Source: an uncultured Alphaproteobacteria bacterium
Lineage (GTDB): Bacteria; Pseudomonadota; Alphaproteobacteria; RF32; CAG-239
DNA length: 64,000 nucleotides
Direction: 5' to 3'
NCBI GenBank assembly: GCA_944390355.1
Contig: CALXPT010000003.1
Span: 1 to 64,000 of the forward strand
In this document: positions 3,404-21,872 of the stretch, piece after piece
Numbering within the stretch: the stretch's first letter is position 1
How the letters are laid out: every line of letters starts with the position of its first letter
Translations under genes and position numbers: made by a program
The notes under the pieces: generated by a model
What the model was told of the DNA's origin: nothing
Database searches by the model: none
Seen by the model: only the letters and a program-made list of their open reading frames with translations

Positions 3404-3405
3404 GG

Positions 3406-3780: not shown

Positions 3781-3781
3781 A

Positions 3782-4585: not shown

Positions 4586-4598
4586 AATTAGTTTCCTC

Positions 4599-5282
4599 CT
4601 ATAAAAGCCCCATCAAAGCACCGGCAGCACCGGAAATAATGTTCATACCCAATTGATTTTGAGCTTGAGCATTAGCCGCTTTATTGGCATTAATACGATT
4701 TTCCGCCGAATTTTGAATTTGATAAATCTGCATATTTTTCTCATATCCGGTCGGAGAATTTTGCAACAAAGCATAGATTTCATTAATCGGCAGAACTCTG
4801 GCACTATTCGTAAAGTTCCCAGCCGAAATAGCATCTTGCAAAGATTTTGAAAATGCATTTTGTCCTGCTTCAACCGATTTATAAGCAGCCTGATTAAGAG
4901 CATCATTTTGTTGAGACTGCAAATCATTCATCGCCCGCTGATAAGCCTCGCTCCCGACCGATAATCCCTGATTAGCCAATCTGGTCTGCAAATCCGAAGT
5001 CTGCTGCTGAAATTGCGGATTAAGCTTATCGACATAAGAATTGTAAGTTGCATTTTCTATCCGCTCTCTGGCCGCATCGGATCCATCGACCGAATAAATA
5101 TAGTTAGGTCGATTAGCCAAAGTCTGGCTTAAGCTATAAGCCTGCTGAGCCATATTTGCGTTAGAATCATCCGCAACGGAAGTATCAATATTTTTCAAAT
5201 ATTTTAAAATTTCATTTTCCGCCGTATTATAAGAAGTAGATGCCCCGCCGGCACCAAAAATTTTTCCAATTGATTTACTCAT
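4599..5282 (-). CDS. Podovirus tail or ejection-associated protein
   Basis: I place the start at MSKSIGKIFGAGG (5282) because GGAG lies eight bases upstream. The longer start at 5306 has no ribosome-binding site and would overlap the preceding gene. The 227-residue product has a glycine-rich N-terminus, long Gln/Asn/Ala-rich helices with an LQTRLANQGLSVGSEAY segment, and a hydrophobic C-terminus. Such proteins recur beside tail genes in podoviruses and are often virion or DNA-ejection components. The exact role is not known. Confidence 0.65.
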   Translation of the reverse strand: MSKSIGKIFGAGGASTSYNTAENEILKYLKNIDTSVADDSNANMAQQAYSLSQTLANRPNYIYSVDGSDAARERIENATYNSYVDKLNPQFQQQTSDLQTRLANQGLSVGSEAYQRAMNDLQSQQNDALNQAAYKSVEAGQNAFSKSLQDAISAGNFTNSARVLPINEIYALLQNSPTGYEKNMQIYQIQNSAENRINANKAANAQAQNQLGMNIISGAAGALMGLL

Positions 5283-5286
5283 TTTA

Positions 5287-5700
5287 TTAACTCCATTTAC
5301 ATTCATTTTTTAACATAGAAAAAATAAAAGCATCTTCACCGTTTTCACGAAATTTCCGAAGATGCCCTTCTTTACGAAAACCAAGCCGCTTAACCAAATC
5401 CAAACATTTTTGATTTGAACGGCTAACCAACAAACTGATGCGCCGGCATTGCAGCACATCAAACGCGGTATAAAAAATGTAGCGCAACACCTTAAGTGTA
5501 CACCACCTTTTATCTTGCGTATAAATAGTCCACCACACGTCACATTGAGGACGATAATTATGAAAGATTAAAGCCCCGCAAAGCTTTCCCGAGCGAACGA
5601 ACCCGACTGTATAATTCTCTCCGACCCAATCAAAGTTTTCACCTAATCCGGCACAAACCCATTGAGCAAGTAAATTATCTTTATCTTGAACAATTTCCAT
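5287..5700 (-). CDS. Phage-encoded GNAT acetyltransferase-like protein
   Basis: A 137-residue protein with the GNAT order: beta strands ending at CGALIFHN, a DVWWTIYT strand, the LKVLRYIFYTAFD helix in the acyl-CoA site region, then ISLLVSRSNQKCLDLVKRLGF and a FRKEGHLR C-terminal strand. The last part is typical of RimJ-like GNATs. It lies inside the structural operon, between the beta-propeller and tail genes. It may modify a virion or host protein, but the substrate cannot be inferred. Confidence 0.7.
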   Translation of the reverse strand: MEIVQDKDNLLAQWVCAGLGENFDWVGENYTVGFVRSGKLCGALIFHNYRPQCDVWWTIYTQDKRWCTLKVLRYIFYTAFDVLQCRRISLLVSRSNQKCLDLVKRLGFRKEGHLRKFRENGEDAFIFSMLKNECKWS

Positions 5701-5720
5701 TTCAGCCTCAAAAAAAACTA

Positions 5721-7283
5721 TTACAAAAATCCGCTTCCGACCTCAAAACGCAGATTAGTTTCATACCACTCAATCGAATTTCCCCTCGTTTTAGTTTGAA
5801 AAACAAGACTGAACTTAAATCCCGTAGATGAGGTAGAAATCCATTGACTGTTAATGGTTGTTTTCAAAACCGCCCAAAACACACCGCTCGGAAATTCTTT
5901 TGAACTCCACAAAGATTGATTCCACAACGTCAATTTGACAGCTTTTTCACCGATATTTTCCTGATAAGGCTGAGATTCGGTATTAAAATCGGTATTTGCA
6001 TAAATCGTAAGAGCATAATCATTAAAAGACTTTGTTCTCGGGTTAAGAAGCTGCAGTTTTTTAAGCCCGTCAACAGCTAAAGAACTATATGCCTGCTCAA
6101 CTTTACCCTCAATCGGATCAAGATTATCGCTGTACCCCTCATCAAAAAGCATAACACCTGTCGTTGTGCCGAAATAAGCCCGTTCATTATAACACCCCCA
6201 ACAATACGCATTCAAATTTGTAAACCGACACCAAGCACCCGTATTCAAATTGACGACATGCTGCTCAAATTGTTGATTAACCGGCACATTAAAAATCGCA
6301 TACCCGCCGCGGCTATATATAAGGGATTGCCAACCAAATTTATCGGCACCGACGGCTGTTCTGGAAAGAACCAAACCTCTGATTTTATCCGAAAAAGCAA
6401 TCTGAGAATTACTGGCCTGAGACAAAGGCAAGGCCTTGGAAAGAGGCAAATAGCCATCGCGCGTAATCACCACGATATCCGCTTGATAATTCATAATACA
6501 ACGGTATCCGATTGGCTTGCTGATTTGAAAAGAACCTTTAAGAGTCCAATCATCGGCAGAATTAGGATTTTTTCCGCTGTAAACCAAGGCCTCACCTTCA
6601 GAAGTAATAAACACGGTCAAATCATCCATACCTTGACCGCCATCTTGTGTCCAGTTAGCCACAGCCACCAAATAACCGCCGCATCGAGCAATGGTTGTTA
6701 AATCAAAACAAAGCAAGTTTCCTTGAACTTCTGCGGCATTTTCGGAATACCAAACCTTAAGCGAATTTTTTTCCACAAACCACAAACGTTGTTTCGAAGA
6801 ATTAACGTTAACCAATTTTTCGGGAATTAAACCTTCACCTTCGAATTGGACATCGGCCCAAATGTCACCGTCATTATCATCAATATAAAAAGTCTGAGGC
6901 ATGTCTTGGCCATTTACTGCAAAGAGACGGTTTTTAAACTGTGCACATTGCCATTCATCATTTTGAAAAGACTTATCAATCTTTTTGGCATCCTTAGCCG
7001 AGGTAATATCCCAAAGTTCTCCGCCGCCAAAAGCAAAGAATCTCTTTTCTCCGCCTTCGGGATTAAATTCCGCCAATGTTTTGACCGCATGTTCCATGTT
7101 AACATAAGGAACATAGCCTTTGCGCAAAACGACTTTGGTTTCGGAAGGCAAATAATTATCCATGGTAATGGCGTCGGTTTCTTTCATCAAATCCAAACTG
7201 TCGCGAGCATTCAAACCACCGATTGGAGCCGAAAGCACATAATTTCGCGACTTGTTGGCACGACTAATTATCCTTTTGAGCAT
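5721..7283 (-). CDS. Phage neck/tail beta-propeller-like protein
   Basis: I place the start at the ATG at 7283, with a GGGGGTG site upstream. The in-frame TTG at 7289 is a weaker alternative. The 520-residue product begins with an APIGGLNARDSLDLM motif seen in podovirus proteins of this type. It then contains repeated four-stranded units rich in aromatic and Gly-Gly pairs (FFAFGGGELWDI, RLFAVNGQDMP, RLWFVEKN, ARCGGYLVAVANW), as in a beta-propeller. In P22-like phages comparable proteins plug the connector (gp10 position). The overlap with the adaptor gene 7264-7986 supports a neck role. Family assignment is by pattern and context. Confidence 0.68.
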   Translation of the reverse strand: MLKRIISRANKSRNYVLSAPIGGLNARDSLDLMKETDAITMDNYLPSETKVVLRKGYVPYVNMEHAVKTLAEFNPEGGEKRFFAFGGGELWDITSAKDAKKIDKSFQNDEWQCAQFKNRLFAVNGQDMPQTFYIDDNDGDIWADVQFEGEGLIPEKLVNVNSSKQRLWFVEKNSLKVWYSENAAEVQGNLLCFDLTTIARCGGYLVAVANWTQDGGQGMDDLTVFITSEGEALVYSGKNPNSADDWTLKGSFQISKPIGYRCIMNYQADIVVITRDGYLPLSKALPLSQASNSQIAFSDKIRGLVLSRTAVGADKFGWQSLIYSRGGYAIFNVPVNQQFEQHVVNLNTGAWCRFTNLNAYCWGCYNERAYFGTTTGVMLFDEGYSDNLDPIEGKVEQAYSSLAVDGLKKLQLLNPRTKSFNDYALTIYANTDFNTESQPYQENIGEKAVKLTLWNQSLWSSKEFPSGVFWAVLKTTINSQWISTSSTGFKFSLVFQTKTRGNSIEWYETNLRFEVGSGFL

Positions 7284-7986
7284 AAACAATCACCCCCTCG
7301 CTAAATTGCCGATTAAATTCACCATCCAAAGCAATATCCCTTAAAGCCAAACCTGAGGCAAAACATTTTTTGACCTCGCTTTCATATTCGTTAAACTCTT
7401 CTTCATAAGGCAAGCCGTTGCGTTTATACCAACGCCAAAGGATACCGAGTTTCACCAAATAATCATCAAACAACGGAACATCGGTATTTTTGGTTATCTG
7501 ATTTTTCTCGGCTTGTTCGCAAAACTCAGCCTCAGGGTCATAGCAAACATTTTCCGAGCGATAATTAAAAACAATCTTCAATCCTTCATCGGGTTGCTCC
7601 AAAAAGACAAAACGCCCGTTTTGAATTTTAAATCTCACCCCGATGCCTTTAATGTTAAAATACTTATCGCGCATATATTCGGCCGGATTCAAAGCCCCGA
7701 CAACTTTTTCGTTTTTATCCTTTACAAACACCGTGTTATGAACCAAAGAAAAAAAGTCAGGACAAAAATCCCGAATATAATAAGTTTTTTTATTTTCATG
7801 AGTTTTCAAAACCCCCTCTTTAATTAATTCTTGCCAATCACCGTAACGACGTAAACTCTCCAACGTAGATTTCGCAATACTCAAAAAAATTGCCTCATGC
7901 AAAGATGAGGAATCAAACAAATTTTGCGGTTTTTGCGTTGCCGCCAAAGCCGCCGCATCTTGACAAATTTCTAAAATACTAGCCAT
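7264..7986 (-). CDS. Head-to-tail adaptor, P22 gp4-like
   Basis: The ATG at 7986 is preceded by GGAGAGG at good spacing. The TTG farther upstream (8010) is not needed. The 240-residue protein is mainly helical at its ends, with ICQDAAALAA near the N-terminus and LVKLGILWRWYKRNGLPYEEE near the C-terminus. That arrangement recurs in podovirus tail adaptor proteins. Adaptors of this kind bind under the portal ring. Its position next to the propeller gene fits. Confidence in the phage structural role is high, and in the exact subunit moderate. Confidence 0.7.
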   Translation of the reverse strand: MASILEICQDAAALAATQKPQNLFDSSSLHEAIFLSIAKSTLESLRRYGDWQELIKEGVLKTHENKKTYYIRDFCPDFFSLVHNTVFVKDKNEKVVGALNPAEYMRDKYFNIKGIGVRFKIQNGRFVFLEQPDEGLKIVFNYRSENVCYDPEAEFCEQAEKNQITKNTDVPLFDDYLVKLGILWRWYKRNGLPYEEEFNEYESEVKKCFASGLALRDIALDGEFNRQFSEGVIVYAQKDN

Positions 7987-8076
7987 TAAACCTCTCCAAA
8001 TTTTAACCAAAAGAAATAAAAACCCCGCCCCAATCCCGCTCTGCCCCGCAGACTATCCTTTTTTCACTTTCAGGAA

Positions 8077-8643
8077 CTATTGTTTTTTACTGCCCGAAGT
8101 AGTTTTGCGTTTTTTCAGTTGAGCAATTTGCTCTTTTAACCGCGCAATTTCAGACAAATAAAATTCCTCTTTTTTCTGCCAAAGATTAATTTTGGCATTA
8201 GCTTTGGCATTATCCAAAAACTTAATTGCCAAAGCCCTCTCCCGAACCACACCAAGGTCTTGAGCTTTTTCATCACTAAGTTCGGACAAAGCTTCAACCG
8301 TAAAAATACCGCGATATTTCAAGGATTCGACTTCAGCCGCCGACAAAAAAGCAAATTGTTCCAAAGGAGCCCCTTTCTCAATTTGTTTTTTCGACAACAA
8401 ATAGCGATTATATTCGGTCGGAAACCGCCTAATTTTATCAGCGGTAGCCGGTTGGTCGAAAACATCATAACTATCGCGTACGCGAATTTCGACAAAGCAA
8501 ACATTTTTAAAAACCGGCAGTCCGTTTTCATCGAGCGCATCGGTTTTAACGGCTCGATCATAAAATCTGGCCGCCACGTCTTTATCTGCTTTACTCTTGT
8601 TAGCATCAATCATCTGTTGAAACAAATCAAAATCCAAATCCAT
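8077..8643 (-). CDS. Phage protein of unknown function between capsid and adaptor genes
   Basis: A 188-residue soluble protein. The middle contains LKYRGIFTVEALSELSDEKA, resembling a helix-hairpin-helix-like element. The C-terminal 45 residues form a Lys/Glu-rich coiled coil ending in a basic tail. Similar proteins recur at this place in alphaproteobacterial podovirus genomes as I remember them, but no role is established. It could be a capsid or DNA-associated virion protein. Confidence 0.6.
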   Translation of the reverse strand: MDLDFDLFQQMIDANKSKADKDVAARFYDRAVKTDALDENGLPVFKNVCFVEIRVRDSYDVFDQPATADKIRRFPTEYNRYLLSKKQIEKGAPLEQFAFLSAAEVESLKYRGIFTVEALSELSDEKAQDLGVVRERALAIKFLDNAKANAKINLWQKKEEFYLSEIARLKEQIAQLKKRKTTSGSKKQ

Positions 8644-8673
8644 GGGAAGCTCCTAAAAAAATGTTATTTTTTC

Positions 8674-8710
8674 AAAAAAATCGTGCCGGCAGAAATATTT
8701 CTGCCGACAC
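8674..8710 (-). terminator. Rho-independent terminator after the major capsid gene
   Basis: A perfect GGCAGAAATATTTCTGCC stem, extended by TG/CA-type flanks, is followed on the minus strand by seven T. It lies 64 bases past the capsid stop and before the next late gene. Partial termination here would give extra capsid mRNA relative to tail genes. Confidence 0.75.
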
Positions 8711-8773
8711 AAAAAAAGCAGCATCAAGCTGCGGAGGTATAATAAGAATTTTTACGAAAATTATAAATCACGT

Positions 8774-9751
8774 TTAATCCTCGACAGAGGCATCAATCAA
8801 TACACCCTGAACCGACGCATTAGACATGGTCAAATTACCGGCCCAACCGACGATTTTATACAAAGCATCTTGATTAACGGCCATACGATCTCCGCCGATA
8901 ACTTTCATATTGCGGTCTTTATGCGGACGCAAATAAATGTAATCGGTATTAAGGAAATACATATGCTTGTCAGGACAATAACCGCCTTGACCGCCATCAC
9001 AAACCATATCGGCACCTTTAAATTTCAGGGTCTGGAATCCGCTGTCAGCCATTTTAGGATCGCTAAAACGCTGTAAAGGAGTCAAACTTTCTTCAAAGGT
9101 GGAATAAAGGTCATCACCGGCAATAATCAAATCCGGTTTATCGGTTCCTCTGCACAAAGATTGATACATTTTGTGCATAGCCCCACCGATAGTATCCTTA
9201 GTCAGAGCCGCCGAAGCGGTTGTAGACTTATTACGCCAAAACTCATTACCCGAAGTCGCACGGTTAATTCCACCAACCGTACCGGTTTCCGGAGCATCGG
9301 CCACCAAGAACTTCAAACCGCCGATTTCCTTTCCGGAACTACCCGTACCGTCGCTGTAAATAGCTTTAGACATCTGATTACTCATAGTCTTAAAAGCATT
9401 TTCGACTCTCTTTTCGAACAAGTCGATAATTTTTTCCGGACCGGAGTTTTTAAGTAAATCTTCGCCGGAAATGGCAACCGGAACGGCACACAATTTTAAT
9501 GCATATTCGGCAGCACTGAAAAGCTGCTTTGGAGAATAATCAATAGCATCATAACCATTGTACCAAATCATATCGCCTTCACCGTATTCAAGCTCTTCAA
9601 GAATTTTAGAACCGCCCGAAATTTCGCGAATTTTACTTTTATCTTTTAAATGATGTAACAACGCATTATTTTTACTGACATTATCTGCCAATTCTTTACT
9701 GCGGTAAGCCAGAGTCGTTGCAAGAGCATCACTATAATTACTATTAGCCAT
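8774..9751 (-). CDS. Major capsid protein
   Basis: The 325-residue product has the features of an HK97-fold coat protein of podovirus type. It has an N-terminal arm with ALATTLAYRSKELADNVSKNN, an AISGEDLLKNSGPEKIIDLFEKRV spine-helix segment, a MYQSLCRGTDKPDLIIAGDDLY central region, and a RMAVNQDALYKIVGWAGNLTMSNA beta-rich C-terminus common to phage coat proteins. It directly follows the scaffold gene and precedes a terminator, as expected for the most abundant virion protein. Confidence 0.86.
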   Translation of the reverse strand: MANSNYSDALATTLAYRSKELADNVSKNNALLHHLKDKSKIREISGGSKILEELEYGEGDMIWYNGYDAIDYSPKQLFSAAEYALKLCAVPVAISGEDLLKNSGPEKIIDLFEKRVENAFKTMSNQMSKAIYSDGTGSSGKEIGGLKFLVADAPETGTVGGINRATSGNEFWRNKSTTASAALTKDTIGGAMHKMYQSLCRGTDKPDLIIAGDDLYSTFEESLTPLQRFSDPKMADSGFQTLKFKGADMVCDGGQGGYCPDKHMYFLNTDYIYLRPHKDRNMKVIGGDRMAVNQDALYKIVGWAGNLTMSNASVQGVLIDASVED

Positions 9752-9786
9752 ATAAATATCCTTTCAAAAAATAAATTTAATAAACA

Positions 9787-10680
9787 CTATGCCCCGATAA
9801 CCCGCTCAAGGATTTGACGAGTAGAAAGTTTTTCTTCGGGAGAAGAACCGACTTTTCCTTTAGCCTCAAAAGCAGCCTTCTGGGCTTTCTGAGCCTCTTC
9901 GGCCTTAGCCTTCAAGTTTTTGTTCATCTGAGCATCAATCAATTGCGCACGCAGCTGCGGCACCAACCATAAAGACTGCTGATAAGCATCTTCATAATCG
10001 AAAGCCAAACGTGCATTAAGCAAAGCAAACATAACATCTTTCACCAGAGAAAAATATTTGTGTTTAGGTTGCCCGTCTTCATCTTTAGCCTGCAAAAAAT
10101 TCATCAATAACGAATTAGCAAGCTGGTTTTCGCGCATTGCGGAAACTTTTTTAAGTTGATTGCATTCCGCTTCAAGCCTGTCAATTTTTTCAGCCAAAGA
10201 ACACATCATGGGATGAGTATCAACCACCGGCACATCAGGCACGGCATTTATTTTCACCCCATAAGCATCAGCCAAAAACTTAACCCCTTCCGCGGGAGCT
10301 TTTTCAAACAAATCATCAACTTCGGCAAGAGCCTTTAACCAAGCTTTGGCATCTTCAAAACCATATTTTTTGAAACGCTCTTGACGAGGTTCGGCAAGCT
10401 GAGAAACCCAAGCAAAAGCATCGACTTGAGAAGACAAATCTTTAAGTTTTTGCTCATTTTCAGCCTCATGATTAGTCAAAAACACACGCCACTCACGCGG
10501 CAGCAAGCCGAATGTTTCAGCCATCTGTTCACCAAAAGAAACGGGAGGGTTCAAAAATTTATCATCCCCCTCGCCGTCCATTTGATTCGGAACAATCTCC
10601 ACCACCTCGGCAACTTCAACATTGCCATCGGGTTTATTGAGTTGTTCTTTAATAATATCTCTGATATCTTTTTTACTCAT
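9787..10680 (-). CDS. Capsid scaffolding protein
   Basis: A 297-residue, acidic, strongly helical protein without membrane segments. It has coiled-coil-like stretches at about 180-215 (LAEKIDRLEAECNQLKK) and a charged Lys/Ala/Glu C-terminal region (about 245-297) that would serve as the coat-binding end. Gene order portal - scaffold - coat is standard. Scaffold sequences diverge quickly, so the call rests on composition and position. Confidence 0.68.
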   Translation of the reverse strand: MSKKDIRDIIKEQLNKPDGNVEVAEVVEIVPNQMDGEGDDKFLNPPVSFGEQMAETFGLLPREWRVFLTNHEAENEQKLKDLSSQVDAFAWVSQLAEPRQERFKKYGFEDAKAWLKALAEVDDLFEKAPAEGVKFLADAYGVKINAVPDVPVVDTHPMMCSLAEKIDRLEAECNQLKKVSAMRENQLANSLLMNFLQAKDEDGQPKHKYFSLVKDVMFALLNARLAFDYEDAYQQSLWLVPQLRAQLIDAQMNKNLKAKAEEAQKAQKAAFEAKGKVGSSPEEKLSTRQILERVIGA

Positions 10681-10903
10681 TCCAAATTAACCTCTTATAA
10701 TGATTTAAAAAAACCGTCCAACTATCCAGACGGCATTTTTTTTCTTGTTGAAACCGAACACTTTTACGAAAAGCATCCGAATAATCGCTGGCCATAGCCA
10801 AATTATTTTGACTAAGGAAGCGTTCAATATCATGGACGGATGAAGCAATTTTTCCATCAGGTAAAACAACATCTTCCGTCCACTCTCTTGAAAAATAGGT
10901 CAT
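10673..10903 (-). CDS. Small phage protein of unknown function
   Basis: The ATG at 10903 (MTYFSREWTED) follows a strong AGGAGG site. The upstream in-frame extension to 10960 has none and runs through the divergent promoter region. The 76-residue product is charged and aromatic-rich, with no recognised domain. Its end overlaps the scaffold start by eight bases, so it belongs to the late operon. It is the first minus-strand gene after the inverted cargo gene at 10985. Confidence 0.6.
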   Translation of the reverse strand: MTYFSREWTEDVVLPDGKIASSVHDIERFLSQNNLAMASDYSDAFRKSVRFQQEKKCRLDSWTVFLNHYKRLIWNE

Positions 10904-10940
10904 CAAAACCTCCTTTTTTAATGTTTTTGTTAAGGAGAAA

Positions 10941-10957
10941 TTAAACATTTTGTTTAA
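10941..10957. promoter_or_regulatory. Inverted repeat in the divergent region before the cargo gene
   Basis: TTAAAC and GTTTAA are separated by five bases. They lie between the minus-strand gene starting at 10903 and the plus-strand gene starting at 10985, 28 bases before the latter. This could be an operator for the cargo gene. The site is short and may be fortuitous in AT-rich DNA. Confidence 0.35.
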
Positions 10958-10984
10958 CAATAATAAAAAACATAGGACAAATCC

Positions 10985-11503
10985 ATGCTGAGAAAAAACT
11001 TAATAATATCGGCCGTCGCAGCATTATTTGCAATTGAAGGCTACTTTATCTACCAAGAGCATATCAAACCGGAGAACATCGCCATCAAACAGATTAACGA
11101 TATCCAAAAAAGTATAACCTCGTTAACCGACAAATGCCGCAGCTCCATCTGGACAACCCTGCCCGACATTAAGGACAGACATATTTTGGATTCGCTGTAT
11201 GGGAGAGCCACTCAAAAAGAAAATGAGTGCCTCAAAAAAGAATTACTCTCACTCATCAAACAAACATACGACCGCCCGCAAGACCAAGAACTTATGTTTC
11301 AATTGGTTGACAGTTTGGAAAAAAACACAATTCAGTTTTACCAAACCGGCATCAACCAAAGCATCTATTGCAAAGTCAAAGACAATCCAGACTCATACGA
11401 CTGCGGCTCTTTTGCCAAATATATTTCCGCCCCGACGGAATGGAATCGCCAGCTTTTAAGATTGTATGAATTCGTCTTAACACGCAAATATTCTAAAGTT
11501 TAG
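10985..11503 (+). CDS. Membrane-anchored periplasmic protein, moron-like cargo gene
   Basis: A 172-residue protein with an N-terminal signal anchor (about residues 6-23) followed by a helical, charged exported domain. It holds four well-spaced cysteines (two in the middle, then the SIYCKV and SYDCGSF motifs) that could form disulfides. An AGGA site precedes the ATG. It is the only plus-strand gene within the late operon. Its 3' end overlaps the end of the portal gene tail to tail by 11 bases. That arrangement is typical of a moron, a cargo gene expressed by the lysogen. No family is recognised; envelope alteration or superinfection exclusion is conjecture. Confidence 0.72.
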   Translation: MLRKNLIISAVAALFAIEGYFIYQEHIKPENIAIKQINDIQKSITSLTDKCRSSIWTTLPDIKDRHILDSLYGRATQKENECLKKELLSLIKQTYDRPQDQELMFQLVDSLEKNTIQFYQTGINQSIYCKVKDNPDSYDCGSFAKYISAPTEWNRQLLRLYEFVLTRKYSKV

Positions 11504-13391
11504 CCTTTTCATCAGCCTTGAGCTTCTGTTCTTGAGCCTGCAAATTCAACTCTTTGTTAGAAAGAGAGATTTTGGCAGCCTCGGCATTTTCTTTAAGAGC
11601 AACTTCACGAGCTTTGAGAGCATTTTTCTCTTTTTCAATTTCATAATTATTCTGAATCTGCATCATCTTGAGTTGGTCATCAACACTCAACTGTTGAGAT
11701 TGATAAGCAGCCTCAGGTAGCGACTGAGACACTTTAACATCTTGAGCCGAAAGAGAAGGAGTCTCAACTTCAAGCTCCGATTTAATTTGCGCAAAACAAT
11801 TTTCCACCACACTTTCAAATCCCCTTGCATTAGGCATACTGGCCACAACGGCCGCAATCATTTTTTGATACATCGGCAACAATTTCGGCTGCAAAGAAAC
11901 GAGCTGAAAAGCACCTTGAATAAGCTTATGAACGGTCTCAACCGTAGAAACGACTTTAGCCTCCTCTGCGGCTTGATTGAACACGGCATCGGTTTCGACA
12001 CTCAGCACCATATCCCGCATTTTATCCGTTTTGAGCAAACGGATAGCCGCCTGAACAAGAGCTTGATTCTGGCGTTCCTCGGCCGTTAAAAATGAAGCCA
12101 GATTATCGGTCGAAAACTGCTCGCAAATAATCTCGGCTTTCAACCGATACAAATCACAAATAAACCGCTGCATATCATTTTGTCGGTCTTGATTGCGAAG
12201 AGTACCGAAATTAGTTTTTTGCTTAACGGCCGTTGCAGTATCATCGGGATTAGAAGTCCCGCGCATAATATCCGAAATACCGGTAACCCGATAAATATTT
12301 TCAATAATATCGTCCCTGCGAGCTGCTAAAGCCTGCAAAGCGCTGATATATTGTTCAATCGGCATAAAATCGACAATTCCCTTAATACCGCCGGCATTTT
12401 TAAGTTTATCAAAATCTTGCACGGCCACCAAAGAAACATCTTTGTTCAAAATATCGGCCAAATGCGGAAACGAGCTGTCATAAGCCCCCGTAACTTTAAG
12501 GGCTTTCATAGTCAAGCTCATCCGGTCAACCACGCCGCCGAGTTCTTCAATATCGGCCTTAATCATGGCATAATCGGGAACAGGAATAATGCTTCCGTTT
12601 GCCAGCGTCGCAAAAATCGGTTTAGGACAAGGGAAAAAGCCCTCAACGCCGAGCGGATTCTCAATTTCCTTCAAAAAGAGATTGGCATTATTTTGGCATA
12701 CCCACAACACACGCTTTGAAACCTTATCCCAAATTTCATAAACCTTAATCTGCTTATAGTCATCATCGGGAACGGAAGGCCCCAACACGGCTAAAGCTTT
12801 TTCTTCGCCAAAGGATTCGAAAATACTTTTACGGCACAAATAATGAATTCTGGCCACCCAGTTAACGTCTTCCCAAATTCCGACATTTTCAAAATCCGCC
12901 AAAAAGTTTTTAGGATTAACATATTCGGAAATAACTTTTTCATCGGTTTTAATCAAGAGCTCCCGACCGTTTTCATCCAAGACGGTTGTAAATTCAGGCT
13001 TATAGACTTCCCACAAAATACCGCATCCGGAAATCAAAAAATCATTACGCGCATATTTAATCACCGAATCAAAATCAAACTTGCTCAAATCCCAGCACAA
13101 AACTCTTTCCAAGAGTTGGCAAGCCAAATTTTCGACCGGAGAAGAATTTTTATTCACCCGTGCGATACAAGGTCTCGGCTGTTTGAAATACAAAAACGGC
13201 TTAAGTGTCTCGATACCTGCCCAAAAAATATTGTTAGCCGTAGAAGATTTCAAACGGCTCAAGGCCGCTTTTTTCTCCAACTTATAATTATCTCTGGTTT
13301 CATCAACCAAATCAAAATAAGGTTGATAAAATTTTTCTGCCGCCTCAACTTGCTTCAACCACCAATCGGCAGAATTAGAATTTATTTGCAT
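11493..13391 (-). CDS. Portal protein
   Basis: At 632 residues this is the size of P22-like portals. The N-terminus has a helical TADWW/QVEAAEKF-type start and FWAGIETLKPFLYFKQPRP. The middle contains KPIFATLANGSIIPVPDYAMIKADIEELGGVVDRM, and then TGISDIMRGTSNPDDTATAVKQK, a segment diagnostic of this portal family. The C-terminal 80 residues are a Gln/Lys/Ala-rich helix like the portal barrel. The dodecameric ring is the DNA entry and exit channel. It lies downstream of terL with the GroES-like gene between them. Confidence 0.9.
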   Translation of the reverse strand: MQINSNSADWWLKQVEAAEKFYQPYFDLVDETRDNYKLEKKAALSRLKSSTANNIFWAGIETLKPFLYFKQPRPCIARVNKNSSPVENLACQLLERVLCWDLSKFDFDSVIKYARNDFLISGCGILWEVYKPEFTTVLDENGRELLIKTDEKVISEYVNPKNFLADFENVGIWEDVNWVARIHYLCRKSIFESFGEEKALAVLGPSVPDDDYKQIKVYEIWDKVSKRVLWVCQNNANLFLKEIENPLGVEGFFPCPKPIFATLANGSIIPVPDYAMIKADIEELGGVVDRMSLTMKALKVTGAYDSSFPHLADILNKDVSLVAVQDFDKLKNAGGIKGIVDFMPIEQYISALQALAARRDDIIENIYRVTGISDIMRGTSNPDDTATAVKQKTNFGTLRNQDRQNDMQRFICDLYRLKAEIICEQFSTDNLASFLTAEERQNQALVQAAIRLLKTDKMRDMVLSVETDAVFNQAAEEAKVVSTVETVHKLIQGAFQLVSLQPKLLPMYQKMIAAVVASMPNARGFESVVENCFAQIKSELEVETPSLSAQDVKVSQSLPEAAYQSQQLSVDDQLKMMQIQNNYEIEKEKNALKAREVALKENAEAAKISLSNKELNLQAQEQKLKADEKAKL

Positions 13392-13396
13392 AAAGA

Positions 13397-13669
13397 TTAC
13401 TCCTCAAATTTAAATAACAAACTTTTATCACGAATAACCACGACATCATCTTGAATACTCGGCAGTTCGTCAAAACAATGAAACATGACGCGATCACCGA
13501 CCTTAACATCAGCTTTAACATCCGGCCCGAGAGCCAAGATACGTCCGGTATTACGAATAATTTCGGTATTACCTTCCAAGATAATCCCGCCATCGGTTTT
13601 AGTTTTTGCCGCATCGGATAGGATAAGGATACGATCCAACACCGGCACAAAAGAATTTTTATCTACCAC
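13397..13669 (-). CDS. GroES-like (Cpn10) co-chaperonin in the phage operon
   Basis: The preferred start is a GTG at 13669, overlapping the terL stop. GGGAG lies seven bases upstream, whereas an upstream ATG (13708) would run far into terL. The 90-residue product follows the Cpn10 order: VLDRILIL at the N-terminus, a mobile-loop region with TDGGIIL, GRILALGPDVKADVKVGDRVMFH, and a VVVIRDKSLLF C-terminus. Such proteins cap the GroEL chamber. Some phages encode their own (T4 gp31) to fold their coat protein. The mobile loop should bind host GroEL. Its location between terL and portal fits a capsid-folding job. Confidence 0.8.
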   Translation of the reverse strand: MVDKNSFVPVLDRILILSDAAKTKTDGGIILEGNTEIIRNTGRILALGPDVKADVKVGDRVMFHCFDELPSIQDDVVVIRDKSLLFKFEE

Positions 13670-14982
13670 TTTGTATCTCCCAATTGACTTTGAAACATAT
13701 CTTCCCAAGAAATCTGCCCTTGCCGATAAAAAGCAATCGGCTCAGCCGCATAGACTGGTTCGGCAAAAGTCAAGGCAAGAGCGTCCGCTTTATCTGGCGA
13801 ACGCCCGAGCCTTTTTTTGACTTCGTCTTTTTCCTCCAACATCAAACGTCCCCGCCTGTCAAATTTTTTATTAACGGAGCACAAATCGCTAAAGAGCTCA
13901 TCATCCTGAGGAAGACAAGGAGTCAAAACATCATTAAGCCAGAGATTAATACCATCCCACATTTCGGCGCGGCGATTGGCATATCTATCATCTAGACAAG
14001 CCTTTTCGCCAAAGTTCACCGCACGCACCACTTGTCGCAAACCTCTGTCTTTCAAAATATCATACACGCCGGCACCAACTCCGCCGACATCAACAAACAT
14101 ACGCTTGGGGCGAAATTTGTTAATAAAAAAAGTTGCCTGATTGGCAACTTCAACCACACTCAACTTAGCAAAACATTCAAACCGCTGGCAGCAGCGTCCG
14201 CGTCGAAAACAAAAAATAGTCTTATCATCGCCAAAGCGCGCCACATCCAAGCCGATAACAAGAGGAGAGTTAACCTCGGCAATCTGCGTATCAAAAGCCT
14301 TGCGCACAACAGCCGCAGCAATAAGTTTTGTATTACCTTGCCGAAGTGGTTCTCCGAGCCAAATATGCTCATAATCATCAGGATTGCATTGCTTGCACTT
14401 TTGAGCCTGCAGCTTAATTTCTTGCGGACAAAACGGATTATCATAATAATTAACTTTTACGACTAAGGTTCGCTCATCGGGATGAGCCGCCACCAAAACC
14501 CACAACGGGTCGTTTTCTTCTTCCCTGTTCATGGAAATCCAAATTTCGGAGCCGTCTTTGCGAATGGTCGGCTCCAAGATTTCCCAGCTTTTGCGCGTAA
14601 TGGTCTGAGCCTCTTCAATCCACGCAATATCGACCCCTTCAAGCGACTTTATTTTTTGAGAATCTTGGTCGCGCAACCCTTTGAATATAAATTTCGTCTG
14701 AGTAACCCTATTCTCAATTTTGTTTTCAAAAATTTTATAATCATCTAATCCGTAAAAAGCGATTCGGTCGCACAAAAGTTTATAAACGGATTCTTTAATA
14801 GAATTTTGAATTTCGCGCAAACACGCAATAAAAAGTTTTTTCTGCCGTCCGAGTAATAATAAACTGTCGGCAAAAGCATAAGACTTTCCGCCGGCTCTTC
14901 CGCCATAATAAAATTTATTGCGATAACTTTCGCGCAACAAAGGTTCAAAAATTTTAGGTATCGCCACATTAACCTGTTTCAC
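13663..14982 (-). CDS. Terminase large subunit
   Basis: The 439-residue packaging motor has both expected domains. The ATPase part shows a Walker A-like GGRAGGKS at 27-34 and Walker B IAWIEEA at about 119-125. The nuclease part begins with GLDVARFGDD (about 244-253), has FVDVGGVGAGVYD, and ends with DKADALALTF, supplying acidic metal ligands. All catalytic motifs appear intact. It follows terS by 17 bases and is translationally coupled to the GroES-like gene. Confidence 0.93.
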   Translation of the reverse strand: MKQVNVAIPKIFEPLLRESYRNKFYYGGRAGGKSYAFADSLLLLGRQKKLFIACLREIQNSIKESVYKLLCDRIAFYGLDDYKIFENKIENRVTQTKFIFKGLRDQDSQKIKSLEGVDIAWIEEAQTITRKSWEILEPTIRKDGSEIWISMNREEENDPLWVLVAAHPDERTLVVKVNYYDNPFCPQEIKLQAQKCKQCNPDDYEHIWLGEPLRQGNTKLIAAAVVRKAFDTQIAEVNSPLVIGLDVARFGDDKTIFCFRRGRCCQRFECFAKLSVVEVANQATFFINKFRPKRMFVDVGGVGAGVYDILKDRGLRQVVRAVNFGEKACLDDRYANRRAEMWDGINLWLNDVLTPCLPQDDELFSDLCSVNKKFDRRGRLMLEEKDEVKKRLGRSPDKADALALTFAEPVYAAEPIAFYRQGQISWEDMFQSQLGDTKW

Positions 14983-14999
14983 CCCAACCTCCCGTATGG

Positions 15000-15380
15000 T
15001 TAATCGACAAACTTAACCAACACCTGAGGAATTTCTTGTTTGGGAGGATCATCAATATCCTCGACTTTGGGTTTATCAAGCCCCAAAAGTTTAGCTTTAC
15101 CCATAGAAGCAGAAACCATAGCCGCGGCCGCTTCTTTAGAAAGGGCGAGCTGTCTGGCCTCTTCCAATTCTTCAAGCAGCCTCTGGAGCGAAATTTTGGC
15201 ATTTTGCATAGCCTCCTGCCGGATCTTATCCAGTTCATTTTTCACGGCAGCCGACTTCATCACCTTGGAGGCGGCATTTTCCGGATTCGCATATCCCGCC
15301 GCCCGAGCCGCCTCCACCCCCACGCCGCATTTGGCATAAGCCTCAATAAAGCGAATTTGCTTTAACGTTAAATTCCCCAT
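15000..15380 (-). CDS. Terminase small subunit
   Basis: I choose MGNLTLKQIRFIEAY (15380) as the start, because the longer frame runs through a hairpin-rich leader. The 126-residue product has the terminase small subunit signature: a TLKQIRFIEAYAKCG helix, AARAAGYANPENAASKVM (a DNA-binding helix-turn-helix), then helical oligomerisation segments and an acidic-proline tail. It recognises the packaging site and recruits TerL. It is the first gene of the late operon; the ribosome-binding site is weak. Confidence 0.82.
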   Translation of the reverse strand: MGNLTLKQIRFIEAYAKCGVGVEAARAAGYANPENAASKVMKSAAVKNELDKIRQEAMQNAKISLQRLLEELEEARQLALSKEAAAAMVSASMGKAKLLGLDKPKVEDIDDPPKQEIPQVLVKFVD

Positions 15381-15423
15381 TTGTCTTAACTCGTTTATCT
15401 GAAAATTAAATATAAATAACAAC

Positions 15424-15449
15424 AAAAAAGGAGAACGTTGACGTTCTCC
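15424..15449 (-). terminator. Hairpin terminator in the leader of terS
   Basis: On the minus strand, GGAGAACG and CGTTCTCC form a perfect eight-base stem with a four-base loop, followed by TTTTTT. It sits 44 bases before the terS start. No minus-strand gene lies upstream within reach, so it would act on the operon's own leader. Confidence 0.7.
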
Positions 15450-15456
15450 ATAAACT

Positions 15457-15487
15457 CTTATACTCATCATATCACAAGTTATAGCAA
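15457..15487 (-). promoter_or_regulatory. Possible late promoter upstream of terS
   Basis: Minus-strand TTGCTA (15482-15487) and TATAAG (15457-15462) are 19 bases apart, so the spacing is poor. Transcription would begin just before the 15424-15449 hairpin. This resembles the promoter-terminator leaders of phage late operons controlled by antitermination. The promoter match is weak. Confidence 0.3.
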
Positions 15488-15625
15488 AAACGAGATAAAA
15501 AGTCTCGAACTTTTTTGTCGCGACATTCATTTTCTTATAAGGCCTTGAAAAATAATAAAAAAAACGCTCTTGAAAACGCGACATTTGAATTTATATATAA
15601 TAAAAAGGCACAAGGAGAACAACAA

Positions 15626-16290: not shown

Positions 16291-17103
16291 CTAAAAAGCT
16301 AGGACTGGACGAACGTAATTGTAATCGTGATTCTTACTGTTGCTGTACACACTACCATCACCGAAGTACAATTGCCAAGCATTGTAAATAGAATACTCGG
16401 AAGAAGACCAATAGTAACCTGTATTCAATTTTGTTCCGCCGATTTTCCCTAACGCTATATTCAATACATCCTTATTACCATATATCGCATCTAATTCTCC
16501 AAAAGCAGGCAAGTACCAATCTCCGGCTAACGTTCCTTCCGTTTGATAGCTATTCACATAATCAAATGCAGGACAACTTCTCCCTATCTCCTTGCAATGT
16601 TCCAACACTAAACGCGTATTATGTTTACCTTGCCAATCTGCTGTTACCGTTGATGATGAACTATAATTTGATAATGTCGGTACATCAAAAAGTTCATCCG
16701 ACCATAGTTTCCCCTCTGTATCCATAGCTATAGCCAGGTGATTAGTCGTATCAAACACAACACCGATTGGCGTTTTAGAAGCCACCATATTTGCATTACA
16801 GCTCATATCCGAGTATAAAATATCGCCAATTTTGCAGTTGCTGTAATCTGGTGCCGAACTACCGCCACCGTTATTGATAATTTCCGTAATTTGTTTTTCA
16901 AGTTCCGTGATTTTGTTGGTTAAATCAACCACCGTACAGTTCCATGCATTGCCGAACGGGCATTTGATTCCGCCGGTGCAGGATGAACTTGAGGTGTAAC
17001 CTAAAGATGAACAGGTCGGGGTTTGAATACAGGCAGCCTCCGCCACACCGCTCAACAAACCACTCACCACCAAAGCCGATGAATATAATAAAATTTTTCT
17101 CAT
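16291..17103 (-). CDS. Secreted protein with C-terminal Lcl_C (DUF1566) domain
   Basis: The start MRKILLYSS is chosen because it opens a clear signal peptide (cleavage near AEA-ACIQ, residue 25). The mature N-terminus is a small Cys-rich repeat (CIQTPTC, SSCTGGIKCPFGNAWNC). A short coiled coil (NKITELEKQITEIINN) follows. The last 110 residues are an Lcl C-terminal domain: WYLPAFGELDAIYG, YYWSSSEYS, AWQLYFGDG and YVRPVLAF. This C-type-lectin-like domain is found in surface adhesins. It is probably cotranscribed with the Cys-rich gene upstream (34-base gap). A truncated relative lies at 25005-25349. Confidence 0.8.
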   Translation of the reverse strand: MRKILLYSSALVVSGLLSGVAEAACIQTPTCSSLGYTSSSSCTGGIKCPFGNAWNCTVVDLTNKITELEKQITEIINNGGGSSAPDYSNCKIGDILYSDMSCNANMVASKTPIGVVFDTTNHLAIAMDTEGKLWSDELFDVPTLSNYSSSSTVTADWQGKHNTRLVLEHCKEIGRSCPAFDYVNSYQTEGTLAGDWYLPAFGELDAIYGNKDVLNIALGKIGGTKLNTGYYWSSSEYSIYNAWQLYFGDGSVYSNSKNHDYNYVRPVLAF

Positions 17104-17137
17104 TTTCTTTCTCCTTGATAATAATTTCAGTTCTAAG

Positions 17138-17995
17138 TTATTGCTCAAAAGCGCAATAGTCGCACCAGTCGGTGCAGCCGGTTGCACATCCGGTTACAAT
17201 GTATAAATTCGAGCATTCTTCAAACGTACAGACCGTGCACGGCGGACATTCGCTCTCCGTGCCGAGGTTCGGGCATTTTTTGCACTCCGAACACAAGATT
17301 GTGTCGCCTGATTGACAAGTCGTTGCTCTGTCCTCACAGCCCATTTCCCCGCAATCCAAATATCCGGTGCAGTCTTTCTCTTTGATTTTGTATTTTTCTT
17401 TGATTTTCAATCCGCCTTCGTCGCATTCCATACATGGTTCACCATCTACCTCATAACCGTCTGGAATTGAACCCAATGTGTATTTGTATTCCGCCGGACA
17501 CGTCGGCGTACAACAGTCTTTGTATAACCCATTGCCGCAGACCGTACCGACACCTTTTAACGGTGCTTCACAAGTTACGTAATTACTCGGGCAGTCCGGA
17601 ATACATTCGGCAAAATAGGTATTATTCAGAGGACAATATTTATTAGGCTTATAACCGCTCGGACATGATGATAAAGTATAGCCCATTCGGATACAGCTTT
17701 CGGCATCTCCTCCCCCTGGGGGTATAACTTCCGGTGTGCCGCTTTCTAAATCCGTGCCGACAAAGTCCGCGCCGCCGCAATCAGCGGTATCGGTTATCCA
17801 ACAAACTTGTGCAACCTTAACTTCCGTCCGCCCACTTAAACTCTCGGGAGATAAATAATCTTCAGAAAAGAGGTGTGTGTGAAGTGTGTGAACAAATGTA
17901 ATTTTTTCTGAAGGAAGGGAAATATCGGCTCTCACATCCGGCGCAAAAATCGCCGCCGAAGATAACAGCCCAAACAACAAATAAACCTTGTTCAT
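17138..17995 (-). CDS. Secreted cysteine-rich repeat protein
   Basis: MNKVYLLFGLLSSAAIFAPDVRAD is a good signal peptide, and AGGA lies upstream of the ATG at 17995. The 285-residue product is packed with about 40 cysteines in irregular CP/C..C modules (CPSGYKPNKYCPLNNTYFAEC, CPAEYKYTLGSIPDGY, CSECKKCPNLG). It is probably an extracellular disulfide-bonded stalk. No known family is recognised. It is the first gene behind the strong promoter at 18036-18064 and is followed by the Lcl_C gene, so the two may form one surface structure. Confidence 0.72.
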   Translation of the reverse strand: MNKVYLLFGLLSSAAIFAPDVRADISLPSEKITFVHTLHTHLFSEDYLSPESLSGRTEVKVAQVCWITDTADCGGADFVGTDLESGTPEVIPPGGGDAESCIRMGYTLSSCPSGYKPNKYCPLNNTYFAECIPDCPSNYVTCEAPLKGVGTVCGNGLYKDCCTPTCPAEYKYTLGSIPDGYEVDGEPCMECDEGGLKIKEKYKIKEKDCTGYLDCGEMGCEDRATTCQSGDTILCSECKKCPNLGTESECPPCTVCTFEECSNLYIVTGCATGCTDWCDYCAFEQ

Positions 17996-18749: not shown

Positions 18750-20006
18750 ATGCCCGAAACACTCACACCAAATACTTCCAGCAACAAATTGCGCCAACTC
18801 AAATCCGGTGCTTTATTTATGCACAACACCAAACAAAGAATCTCGCGTTGTTTTGAAATTATATCTCCGCTGTTACCTGAAATTGAACATCTAATCTGGA
18901 TAACACAACAAAACCGGATCACCAACACCGCTTACAAGAATCTCATTTTAGACAACTCGGAAGGCTACCGCAGTAAGATATACTTTTTTCCGATAGAAAG
19001 CATATCATACTCAGATACCAATTATCTAAAATTGCACCAACTGGCAACCAACCGACAGTCGATTTGTATTCTAGATGATAGTGCCCTGATAAAGAACCTA
19101 AAATCCGGACGCACCAAACGCCTGCTGCAATTATCGCCTTTATTTAAATATCGCCTGATACTCAGTGCCGCCCCGATATGTGTCGGACTTTTAGATTTAT
19201 ATACACAGCTTGAATTTATGAATCCGAAACTTCTGAAAATGAACAGAGCCCAATTTTCAAACATCTATCTTCAACCGATGACCGGCAAGTTTGACAACCT
19301 CAAGAAATGGTCAACAAGACAACTTGAACTAAAATTATTAGAAAAAATAACACCTTATGTATTAGATAACGACTTAGAGATAAACATTCCCGTAAAAAGA
19401 TACAACTTTTATTTTAACTTAACCGAGAAGGAAGCCACGGAATATGAACGAGAAAAGAATGCCCTGCTGGCCAAACGGGATTATGTACATTTCATGGAAC
19501 TGTTTCACAAATTTCAACACATCTATACACTTTGCGAAAGTAAGGTAAAAATGCTGTTTGAACTGATATGCCAGTTTAAATTCAAACAAGAAAAAGTAAT
19601 AATCTATGTAAAATACATAGATGAGATTCGTTTTTTTCAAGAAAGCGGATGGTTTTCGCCGACAACATATACGGTATTAACCGGATTCAGCAACCAAAAG
19701 AAAGCACTTTATGACTTTACACACCATATAAACATAATGTTTAGCACATATGGTGTGGATAATTCAGCCTTAACTGTACCATGTTGCAATAATGTGATAT
19801 TCTTTAGCCAAACATTTGATTACAAATTCAAATTGCAGGCAATCAAGAACTTGTCGAATCAAAAGGACGGAAAACAAATAAACATCTATGATTTCTGGGT
19901 AAACACCGGACTTGATGACATGATTCGCCAAAACTTGCGTATGAAGCACTTTGTAATCGAAAATGTTAGTCAAAACTTATCACAAGAGGAGGCACTCCGT
20001 CTATGA
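18750..20006 (+). CDS. SNF2-like helicase homologue with degenerate ATPase motifs
   Basis: The 418-residue protein keeps the layout of phage-type SNF2 proteins, but its active-site motifs are changed. The Walker A position (LKSGALFMHNTKQR, residues 17-30) lacks GxGKT. Motif II is ILDDSALIKN (107-116), with DD where DE is usual. Motif III is SAAPI (139-143) instead of SGTPI. The C-lobe keeps KVIIYVKYIDEI and NNVIFFSQTFDY (347-358), but the motif VI region (AIKNLSNQKD) has lost its arginines. The rest is well ordered, down to INIYDFWVNTGLDD. It is likely a scaffold or DNA-binding pseudo-ATPase. It overlaps ibrA by ATGA, so the two are coupled. Confidence 0.72.
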   Translation: MPETLTPNTSSNKLRQLKSGALFMHNTKQRISRCFEIISPLLPEIEHLIWITQQNRITNTAYKNLILDNSEGYRSKIYFFPIESISYSDTNYLKLHQLATNRQSICILDDSALIKNLKSGRTKRLLQLSPLFKYRLILSAAPICVGLLDLYTQLEFMNPKLLKMNRAQFSNIYLQPMTGKFDNLKKWSTRQLELKLLEKITPYVLDNDLEINIPVKRYNFYFNLTEKEATEYEREKNALLAKRDYVHFMELFHKFQHIYTLCESKVKMLFELICQFKFKQEKVIIYVKYIDEIRFFQESGWFSPTTYTVLTGFSNQKKALYDFTHHINIMFSTYGVDNSALTVPCCNNVIFFSQTFDYKFKLQAIKNLSNQKDGKQINIYDFWVNTGLDDMIRQNLRMKHFVIENVSQNLSQEEALRL

Positions 20007-21304
20007 AAAAATACCTCGAAAAGAGTGTATACGACGCCACACAAGAAAGATTAAAATATATATTTGAAAACTTTGATAATATATATGTGTCTTTTTCGGG
20101 AGGCAAAGACAGCGGTTTATTACTAAATTTAGTATTAGATTACAAACGCCGCCATAACATAGATAAAAAAATCGGTGTATTTCATCAAGACTTTGAAGCC
20201 CAATACAAACAAACCACCGAGTTTGTAACCCGTATGTTTGAAAACAATATAAATGATATAGAACCCTATTGGGTCTGTTTGCCGATGGGGTCGCGTTGTG
20301 CAGTCAGCAATTATCAAATGTATTGGTACACATGGGATCCGGATGAAAAAGACAAATGGGTACGAGAAATGCCCTCTCAACCTTACATCATAAATCTGGA
20401 TAACAATCCGTTTGATTTTTATAAATATAAAATGGTGCAAGAGGATTTATACGCTGAGTTCGGAGATTGGTTTTCCAGACAAAAGAAAGGCAAATCCGTA
20501 TGTTTGTTGGGGATTCGCGCCGATGAATCCTTAAACCGTTATCGAGCCTATGCAAATGCCCGCAAAGATTTGCTGGATCATAAACAGTGGACTACGAAAA
20601 TGGGCAAGAATTGGTACAATGCGTATCCGTTATACGACTGGACCTGTAAAGATATATGGATAGCCAATGGCAAATTTGAATTTGACTACAACAAAATTTA
20701 TGACCTGTTTTACAAAGCCGGCCTGTCAATCAACCAAATGCGTGTAGCAAGCCCATACCACGAGTCTGCCAAAGAAAGCCTTAATCTCTATCGGGTATTG
20801 GAAGCAGATACATGGGTGAGAATTGTCGGACGCGTACAAGGAGCAAATTTCGGAGCGATGTACGGCAACACCAAATTGCTGGGTTCTCGCCGCATAACTT
20901 TACCCAAAGGCCACACATGGCGAACATATGTAAAGTTTTTATTGGCAACGCTGCCCGATGAGATGCGCCGCAATTATATAGAAAAATTCAAAACATCCAT
21001 CAAATTTTGGTGGAAACGCGGCGGCGTAGTTGATGAAAGGGCCATTCAAGAACTGGAATCTTGCAATTACAAAATCAAGCGTAACGGTCCAAGTCCCTAT
21101 CACTCCGTAAAAGAGCAGATTCGCTTTTTGGGCACACCGGACAGCACGGACGACATCAAATCGACCATAGATATACCGTCATGGAAACGCATGGCCGTGT
21201 GTATATTAAAAAACGACCACCTCTGCAAATACATGGGATTCGCCCAAACCAAAAAGCAAGCCTTACGAGAAAAAGAATTGTTGAACAAATACCGTAGTTT
21301 ATAG
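20003..21304 (+). CDS. ibrA: IbrA-like PAPS-reductase-family protein (DUF3440)
   Basis: The 433-residue protein has an intact PP-loop SFSGGKDSG at 30-38, followed by IGVFHQDFEAQY and a QPYIINLDNNP region. It then has LLGIRADESLNRYRA, YPLYDWTCKDIW and LSINQMRVASPYHESAKESLNLY, the order of PAPS reductases fused to the DUF3440 C-terminal domain. E. coli IbrA is of this kind. PP-loop enzymes adenylylate substrates or transfer sulfur; the substrate of IbrA is not established. It is flanked by the SNF2-like gene and the ParB-like gene in one operon. Confidence 0.87.
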   Translation: MKKYLEKSVYDATQERLKYIFENFDNIYVSFSGGKDSGLLLNLVLDYKRRHNIDKKIGVFHQDFEAQYKQTTEFVTRMFENNINDIEPYWVCLPMGSRCAVSNYQMYWYTWDPDEKDKWVREMPSQPYIINLDNNPFDFYKYKMVQEDLYAEFGDWFSRQKKGKSVCLLGIRADESLNRYRAYANARKDLLDHKQWTTKMGKNWYNAYPLYDWTCKDIWIANGKFEFDYNKIYDLFYKAGLSINQMRVASPYHESAKESLNLYRVLEADTWVRIVGRVQGANFGAMYGNTKLLGSRRITLPKGHTWRTYVKFLLATLPDEMRRNYIEKFKTSIKFWWKRGGVVDERAIQELESCNYKIKRNGPSPYHSVKEQIRFLGTPDSTDDIKSTIDIPSWKRMAVCILKNDHLCKYMGFAQTKKQALREKELLNKYRSL

Positions 21305-21314
21305 GAAAAAAGAG

Positions 21315-21872
21315 ATGAGTGAAGAAATAAATCAAACCAATGAGAAAGATTCTGCAACCGAAGGCACCTTTGTCAGTCCGGTTTATAATGTCATTGCCGT
21401 TCCGCTGGAAAAAGTCAAAGCCAATGACTACAACCCAAACCGCGTAGCCCCTCCGGAGATGAAACTTTTGGAAACCTCCATATGGGAAGATGGTTTTACC
21501 CAACCAATCGTCTGCTATCATGACACGGAAAAAGATGAATATGTAATAGTTGACGGCTTCCACCGATATACAACCATGCTAATTTCAGACAGGATTCGCA
21601 ATCGAGAAAACGGCAAGATTCCGGTTGTAGTAATAAACAAAGATTTGAGTGAACGTATTGCCTCGACGATTCGCCACAACCGCGCCCGCGGCTCACATAA
21701 TGTCGATTTAATGAGCAACATCGTTAAAGAACTGCTTGAACTCGAAAAGAGTGATGCATGGATAGCCCGCAATATCGGCATGTCTGCGGATGAAATTCTT
21801 CGCCTAAAACAAATAACCGGTCTGGCAGCCTTGTTTAAGAACGAAGAATTTTCGCGTTCATGGGAATTATAA
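21315..21872 (+). CDS. ibrB: IbrB-like ParB/sulfiredoxin-domain protein
   Basis: The 185-residue product has the ParB N-terminal fold: VPLEKVKANDYNPN, METSIWEDGFTQPI-type strand and helix, DGFHR (80-84, the nucleotide-binding motif), and HNRARGSHNVDLM, which is characteristic of IbrB. A helix-turn-helix-like WIARNIGMSADEILRLKQ lies in the C-terminus. ParB-fold enzymes bind CTP or ATP. IbrB always travels with IbrA, and the ten-base gap here fits. It probably acts together with the PP-loop protein on nucleic acid or a regulator. Exact activity is unknown. Confidence 0.87.
   Translation: MSEEINQTNEKDSATEGTFVSPVYNVIAVPLEKVKANDYNPNRVAPPEMKLLETSIWEDGFTQPIVCYHDTEKDEYVIVDGFHRYTTMLISDRIRNRENGKIPVVVINKDLSERIASTIRHNRARGSHNVDLMSNIVKELLELEKSDAWIARNIGMSADEILRLKQITGLAALFKNEEFSRSWEL

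Follow-up and report, generated by a model that had tools for sequence, protein, structure and literature searches.

Why would a bacterium keep, at the head of a three-gene operon, a protein with the build of an SNF2-type DNA motor from which most catalytic residues have disappeared? The question arises from a 64,000-nucleotide stretch of DNA from an uncultured Alphaproteobacteria bacterium (contig CALXPT010000003.1, positions 1 to 64,000; hereafter the window), in which an SNF2-like gene is followed directly by relatives of ibrA and ibrB:

18750-20006, + strand: SNF2-fold protein, probable pseudo-ATPase, first gene of the operon, 418 aa (ORF, Pfam, PHROGs and predicted fold)
20003-21304, + strand: IbrA-type protein, 433 aa, with a PAPS-reductase-like PP-loop (SGGKDS) and DUF3440
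21315-21872, + strand: IbrB-type protein, 185 aa, with a ParB-type domain and VDGFHR and IRHNRARGSH blocks

The first two genes share an ATGA overlap, the IbrA start lying inside the SNF2 stop, and a ten-base gap separates IbrA from IbrB. Pfam, PHROGs and PDB sequence searches gave concordant family assignments for all three proteins: the SNF2 protein matches SNF2-rel_dom (5.8e-9) and Helicase_C (6.4e-5), both above the Pfam cut-off, as well as a PHROGs DNA helicase (1.8e-27); IbrA matches DUF3440 (5.1e-76), PAPS_reduct (2.1e-10) and a PHROGs PAPS reductase (1.2e-108); and IbrB matches ParB_N (3.3e-6) and a PHROGs ParB-like protein (4.5e-78). IbrA thus combines the PAPS-reductase-like SGGKDS PP-loop with DUF3440, and IbrB combines ParB_N with a DGxHR-type motif and a position beside IbrA. 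The trio, with its overlap and gap, had been recognized in a preliminary description made from the letters alone, and the ORF coordinates and family searches bear it out, along with the statement that IbrA and IbrB retain intact motifs (SGGKDS and VDGFHR, respectively).

Alignment of the window SNF2 protein with phage homologues revealed the following changes in its catalytic motifs:

18828-18842, + strand: Walker A, residues 27-31, TKQRI versus GTGKT in the phage homologues
19074-19082, + strand: motif II, residues 109-111, DDS versus DES
19164-19175, + strand: motif III, residues 139-142, SAAP versus NGTP
19758-19781, + strand: motif V, residues 337-344, DNSALTVP versus GSLGHNLQ
19836-19868, + strand: motif VI, residues 363-373, QAIKNLSNQKD versus QSLHRIYRVGQ

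Both arginine positions of motif VI are occupied by N, and motif II is half lost, with D109 retained and a D at residue 110. The protein lacks the Walker A GxGK[T/S], motif II DE and motif VI arginines that define SNF2 ATPases, which suggests, at the level of sequence, an SNF2 homologue and pseudo-ATPase rather than a functional SNF2-family ATPase. When 36 complete SNF2 copies from the window's alphaproteobacterial family (host copies) were examined in detail, all proved degenerate in the same way: GxGK[T/S] is found in none of these full-length copies, and the first motif VI arginine was scored as kept in at most one (≤3%). The motif II aspartate is present in all 36, with the glutamate in about 60% and the Walker A lysine in about 61%, so that the preliminary claim that all catalytic motifs are lost holds for Walker A, motif III and the motif VI arginines, but is slightly overstated for motif II. 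One copy (G040) retains GSGK and lacks only the T of Walker A; nucleotide binding may therefore survive in some members. The host copies have also acquired clade-specific invariant residues, for example W187, E281, K282, K316 and W383.

The loss of catalytic residues is not accompanied by a loss of the fold. An AlphaFold model built from 25 homologues (mean pLDDT 82, pTM 0.75) has the two SNF2-type RecA-like lobes that mark the family, and both lobes matched SNF2 remodellers in Foldseek and VIA-align comparisons. The best structural match was SRCAP (Z 30.3, rmsd 2.7 over 390 residues), followed by INO80 (Z 29.4) and others at Z 24-29. The likeness to the SNF2/Swi2 ATPases SRCAP, INO80, ISWI, Mot1 and the helicase 1z63 extends over the full length (Z 24-30), whereas the window protein is only 12-19% identical to them and has neither their catalytic residues nor their accessory domains. 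Because the matches span both lobes, the whole motor fold is predicted to be present without its catalytic residues, as the preliminary description had surmised in stating that the rest of the fold is preserved.

The degenerate protein is not peculiar to the window. Of 152 genomes of the family, 56 carry the SNF2 protein, and these are precisely the ones in which IbrA was detected; the trio is single copy and lies in differing neighbourhoods, and no genome among the 152 had IbrA but no SNF2 sequence at all. Azospirillum sp. CAG:239 is one of the relatives with a named record; many others are uncultured Alphaproteobacteria, several of which come from animal gut samples. Gene order is constant in the host operons, with IbrB close behind IbrA, and 33 of 36 homologous operons retain the ATGA overlap. 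Host copies group without exception into a single clade of the SNF2 tree (100/100), within which the larger genera are each monophyletic, with the intact phage proteins outside; the IbrA tree likewise has a single host clade and monophyletic genera, and the rpoB tree is compatible with one gain of the trio without proving it. Contamination or a lone prophage insertion was ruled out by the single-copy occurrence in 56 genomes with varied neighbourhoods. Only one of these is suspect: a trio-bearing genome labelled genus g4 (G134:C68) is probably contaminated, since its rpoB fragment groups with g9. The flanks of the trio change from one genus to another and are shared mostly by members of the same genus, which indicates that the trio itself is the unit kept.

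Where, then, are relatives with intact motifs found? A single-sequence search of genome contigs and viral contigs with the window SNF2 protein gave no match, while the family alignment used as query did; no SNF2 match was found at E 1e-20 among 397 sampled genomes of other Pseudomonadota. The nearest SNF2 relatives outside the family lie on viral contigs (IMG/VR contigs L149-L158; 35-37% identical, 31% for L156), and their motifs are intact (GTGKT/GSGKT, DES, NGTP and RIYRxGQ), with IbrA (42-49% identical, full-length matches) and IbrB (67-75%) alongside. The trio with intact SNF2 motifs also occurs in phages of Lactobacillus, Streptococcus, Listeria (there for SNF2 and IbrA), Flavobacterium and Fusobacterium, examples being Lactobacillus phage phiAQ113, Streptococcus phages CHPC1148 and CHPC877 and Flavobacterium phage FCL-2. 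These phage cassettes and those of L149-L158 resemble the window operon in the adjacency of the same three families (PHROG 62, 2302 and 2159), with IbrB 59-70% identical to that of the window in most (49% in FCL-2) and IbrA 43-49% in most, but they differ from it in their intact SNF2 motifs and variable gene order, in an additional small protein of phrog_27058 type that is often encoded upstream and, in some of them, in a cupin resembling ectoine synthase. The small proteins (phrog_27058 and relatives) share a 'TEKAVLIKLP...W.P.K.VR' pattern and are encoded upstream of SNF2 or IbrA, sometimes two in tandem (L149:3256-3803, L003:3387-3773, L006:3628-4014 and L004:4607-4987). The cupin (PF06339, 8.7e-44; L149:5087-5467) lies between IbrA and IbrB in viral contigs, and products annotated 'ectoine synthase/ParB' follow IbrA in Pseudoalteromonas phage XCL1123 and Mycobacterium phage Gaia. 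Across the host genera no conserved extra gene, nuclease or cupin, was found in the neighbourhoods of the operon, and the profile of the small phage proteins had no match in nine host genomes, in a search without positive control. Most simply, the cassette would have been captured once, would have lost its ATPase activity once and early, and would then have been inherited vertically, with some losses.

To compare constraint on catalytic and other positions, we used the 72 alignment columns that are near-invariant in 16 phage SNF2 proteins, 18 of them in catalytic motifs and 54 elsewhere. Mean retention in the host clade is 36% at the catalytic columns versus 77% at the others (Mann-Whitney p = 8e-6), and the window copy retains 2 of 18 and 38 of 54, respectively. 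The dN/dS of SNF2 is 0.04-0.11 (Nei-Gojobori, pairs with dS below 1) and that of IbrA and IbrB about 0.02; between the window SNF2 and its closest relative it is 0.195 at a dS of 1.78, and in more distant pairs dS is saturated and dN/dS merely indicative. A neutral simulation kept a 418-codon frame open in 0 of 400 runs, even at 0.1 substitutions per site, and the net charge of the host SNF2 proteins is still positive (median +10.5). The low dN/dS together with the simulation excludes relaxed decay for the clade as a whole, with weaker constraint in genus g12, where SNF2 evolves faster (dN/dS up to 0.35, saturated) and is frameshifted in one genome (G168) with an intact IbrA. At least 12 g12 genomes carry a virion marker (see below) but lack all three genes of the trio; considering this together with the faster SNF2 change and the frameshift, the function of the trio is dispensable in part of the family.

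Decay of one single copy was ruled out by the clade-wide shared motif loss, the dN/dS values and monophyly, but a decaying helicase could also be imagined at the level of the clade, with SNF2 a slowly vanishing passenger and selection acting on IbrA and IbrB only. SNF2 indeed evolves several times faster than IbrA (33-58% versus 73-94% identity to the window), the g12 copies are very divergent and the G168 copy is broken; yet its frame is open in nearly all 56 genomes despite this divergence, IbrA never occurs where SNF2 sequence is fully lacking, and the coupling to IbrA and most non-catalytic conserved positions are maintained. The dN/dS values and the sharing largely refute this reading, to which we give very little credence. 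The preliminary description had set the same alternative, close homologues with intact motifs and a dN/dS near 1, against a selected pseudo-ATPase, and the outcome favours the latter: the degeneracy is shared, and the relatives with intact motifs are phage proteins no more than 31-37% identical. Could the protein instead be an active but unconventional ATPase, in which other residues stand in for Walker A and the arginine fingers? The invariant motif II aspartate, the frequent glutamate and Walker A lysine, the GSGK of G040 and the new clade invariants would fit such a substitution, but the clade as a whole has given up the T/S of Walker A, the residues of motif III and the arginine of motif VI, and hardly any catalytic position is left in the window copy, making this reading very improbable.

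A phage-defence complex, in which the trio would sense or modify invading nucleic acid with the dead SNF2 protein as recognition subunit, deserves somewhat more weight but is still unlikely. The model for it comes from the fast-evolving, inactive Swi2/Snf2 domains of the defence proteins PglZ (BREX) and DndH, for which nucleotide or DNA binding without catalysis has been proposed (PMC12839542, PMC10853773). These domains resemble the window protein in being SNF2-derived, in having lost ATP-site residues and in evolving fast while being retained; each of them, however, consists of the second lobe alone, as a fused part of a large defence protein, whereas the window protein has both lobes, is free-standing and is encoded with IbrAB. 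SNF2 also evolves faster than its partners here, and IbrA resembles PAPS-reductase-like enzymes and, weakly, DndC and BrxP. PADLOC nonetheless returned no system, only weak partial single-component matches to DpdE, DndC, BrxP and JetD; the DndC match (TIGR03183) reached 18.6 bits against a cut-off of 290, below what a Dnd/Ssp phosphorothioation module calls for, and no Dnd/Ssp partner gene such as DndD or DndE is conserved around the trio across genera. The operon contains no nuclease, no adjoining gene is conserved across genera, and the ancestral cassette resides in phages. The trio may be a defence or nucleic-acid modification complex, as suggested earlier, but it behaves as a vertically inherited single-copy chromosomal operon in changing neighbourhoods, unlike a mobile defence island.

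The window also contains a phage-like virion cluster (1808-15584, - strand, about 1.8-15.6 kb) encoding small and large terminase, portal, major head protein, tail, amidase and tail fibre proteins. Between it and the trio lies a gene (16291-17187, - strand) for a protein with an Lcl_C domain (1.5e-9), relatives of which are also encoded close to the trio in one g16 and several g1 genomes, more than once in one of these genomes. Virion head and portal proteins were detected in 86-87 of the 152 genomes, in 7 genera and nearly always in single copy, and virion genes tested between more distant g1 species gave a dN/dS of about 0.1-0.3 at a dS of 1.0-2.7; the cluster may be a vertically inherited, gene-transfer-agent-like element. 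That the operon belongs to this cluster and serves its expression is suggested by their direct adjacency in five g1 genomes and by the published activation of prophage genes by IbrAB in E. coli, the eib genes (Sandt et al. 2002, as cited in PMC8065619). Against this, g9 genomes with the trio gave no virion match, in g3, g11 and g14 the virion genes are present and the trio is absent, and many other genomes have the two on separate contigs. Given these mismatched distributions, the trio was rejected as part of the cluster, which is an element in its own right and is distributed differently, and we regard a functional link of this kind as very improbable.

IbrA and IbrB have a wide distribution among phages and bacteria, and to our knowledge almost nothing is known of their chemistry beyond prophage gene activation in E. 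coli. A model of IbrA from an alignment of the window and homologous-locus proteins (pLDDT 72.7, moderate confidence) matches the PP-loop domains of PAPS reductase, ATP sulfurylase and FAD synthase, and IbrB shows striking conservation between phages and hosts, including the SPVYN, VDG-HR and IRHNRARG blocks. E. coli IbrA/IbrB (ECOR-9 island; YbdN/YbdM in K-12) share the order of a DUF3440 PP-loop protein followed by a ParB-like protein, and a paper mentioning DUF3440 describes repression of ybdNM by CitR. Escherichia phage PhiR5_2 has an IbrAB pair with no SNF2 gene beside it, its IbrA being just 34-36% identical, and such pairs without an adjacent SNF2 gene occur in other bacteria and phages, e.g. 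in Enterococcus faecalis and Bacteroides plasmid records, showing that SNF2 is not needed for IbrAB everywhere. Our literature search found no work combining PAPS reductase, ParB, helicase, phage and SNF2.

We consider it probable that the operon began as a captured phage SNF2-IbrA-IbrB cassette whose motor activity disappeared early, and that it is maintained on the chromosome with a pseudo-ATPase among its subunits. Such a cassette would have entered the ancestor of several genera in the family of Azospirillum sp. CAG:239 and become a chromosomal operon; the SNF2 motor would then have lost ATP hydrolysis in the host lineage with the disappearance of Walker A, motif III and motif VI, and purifying selection would have preserved the fold with its two lobes, the conserved positions outside the catalytic motifs and the translational link to IbrA. 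That a motor-dead SNF2 protein is under selection suggests that its present task is to hold on to DNA or to the two partner enzymes rather than to travel along DNA. It would act as a scaffold without ATP turnover, by analogy most likely as a static clamp on double-stranded DNA, and in a complex with IbrA (a PP-loop nucleotide enzyme) and IbrB (ParB-type) it may put both on DNA or hold them inactive until needed. The output, the least certain step, might be regulatory or a chemical modification at DNA, which would agree with the E. coli IbrAB phenotype. The full form of this proposal, in which a phage motor turned non-hydrolysing DNA clamp is the targeting subunit of an IbrA-IbrB complex for chromosomal DNA modification or gene control, is offered only tentatively.

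If true, a clamp-targeted IbrA-IbrB complex would be a machine of a kind so far undescribed. A cassette otherwise known mainly from bacterial viruses has here settled in the chromosomes of uncultured gut bacteria, providing a clear case of a pseudo-ATPase derived from a phage enzyme and kept across several genera. With the motor switched off in 56 genomes and IbrA and IbrB strictly conserved, the contribution of the motor can be separated from the role of the pair, and experiments on the trio may pair an active motor from phage with its inactive host counterpart.
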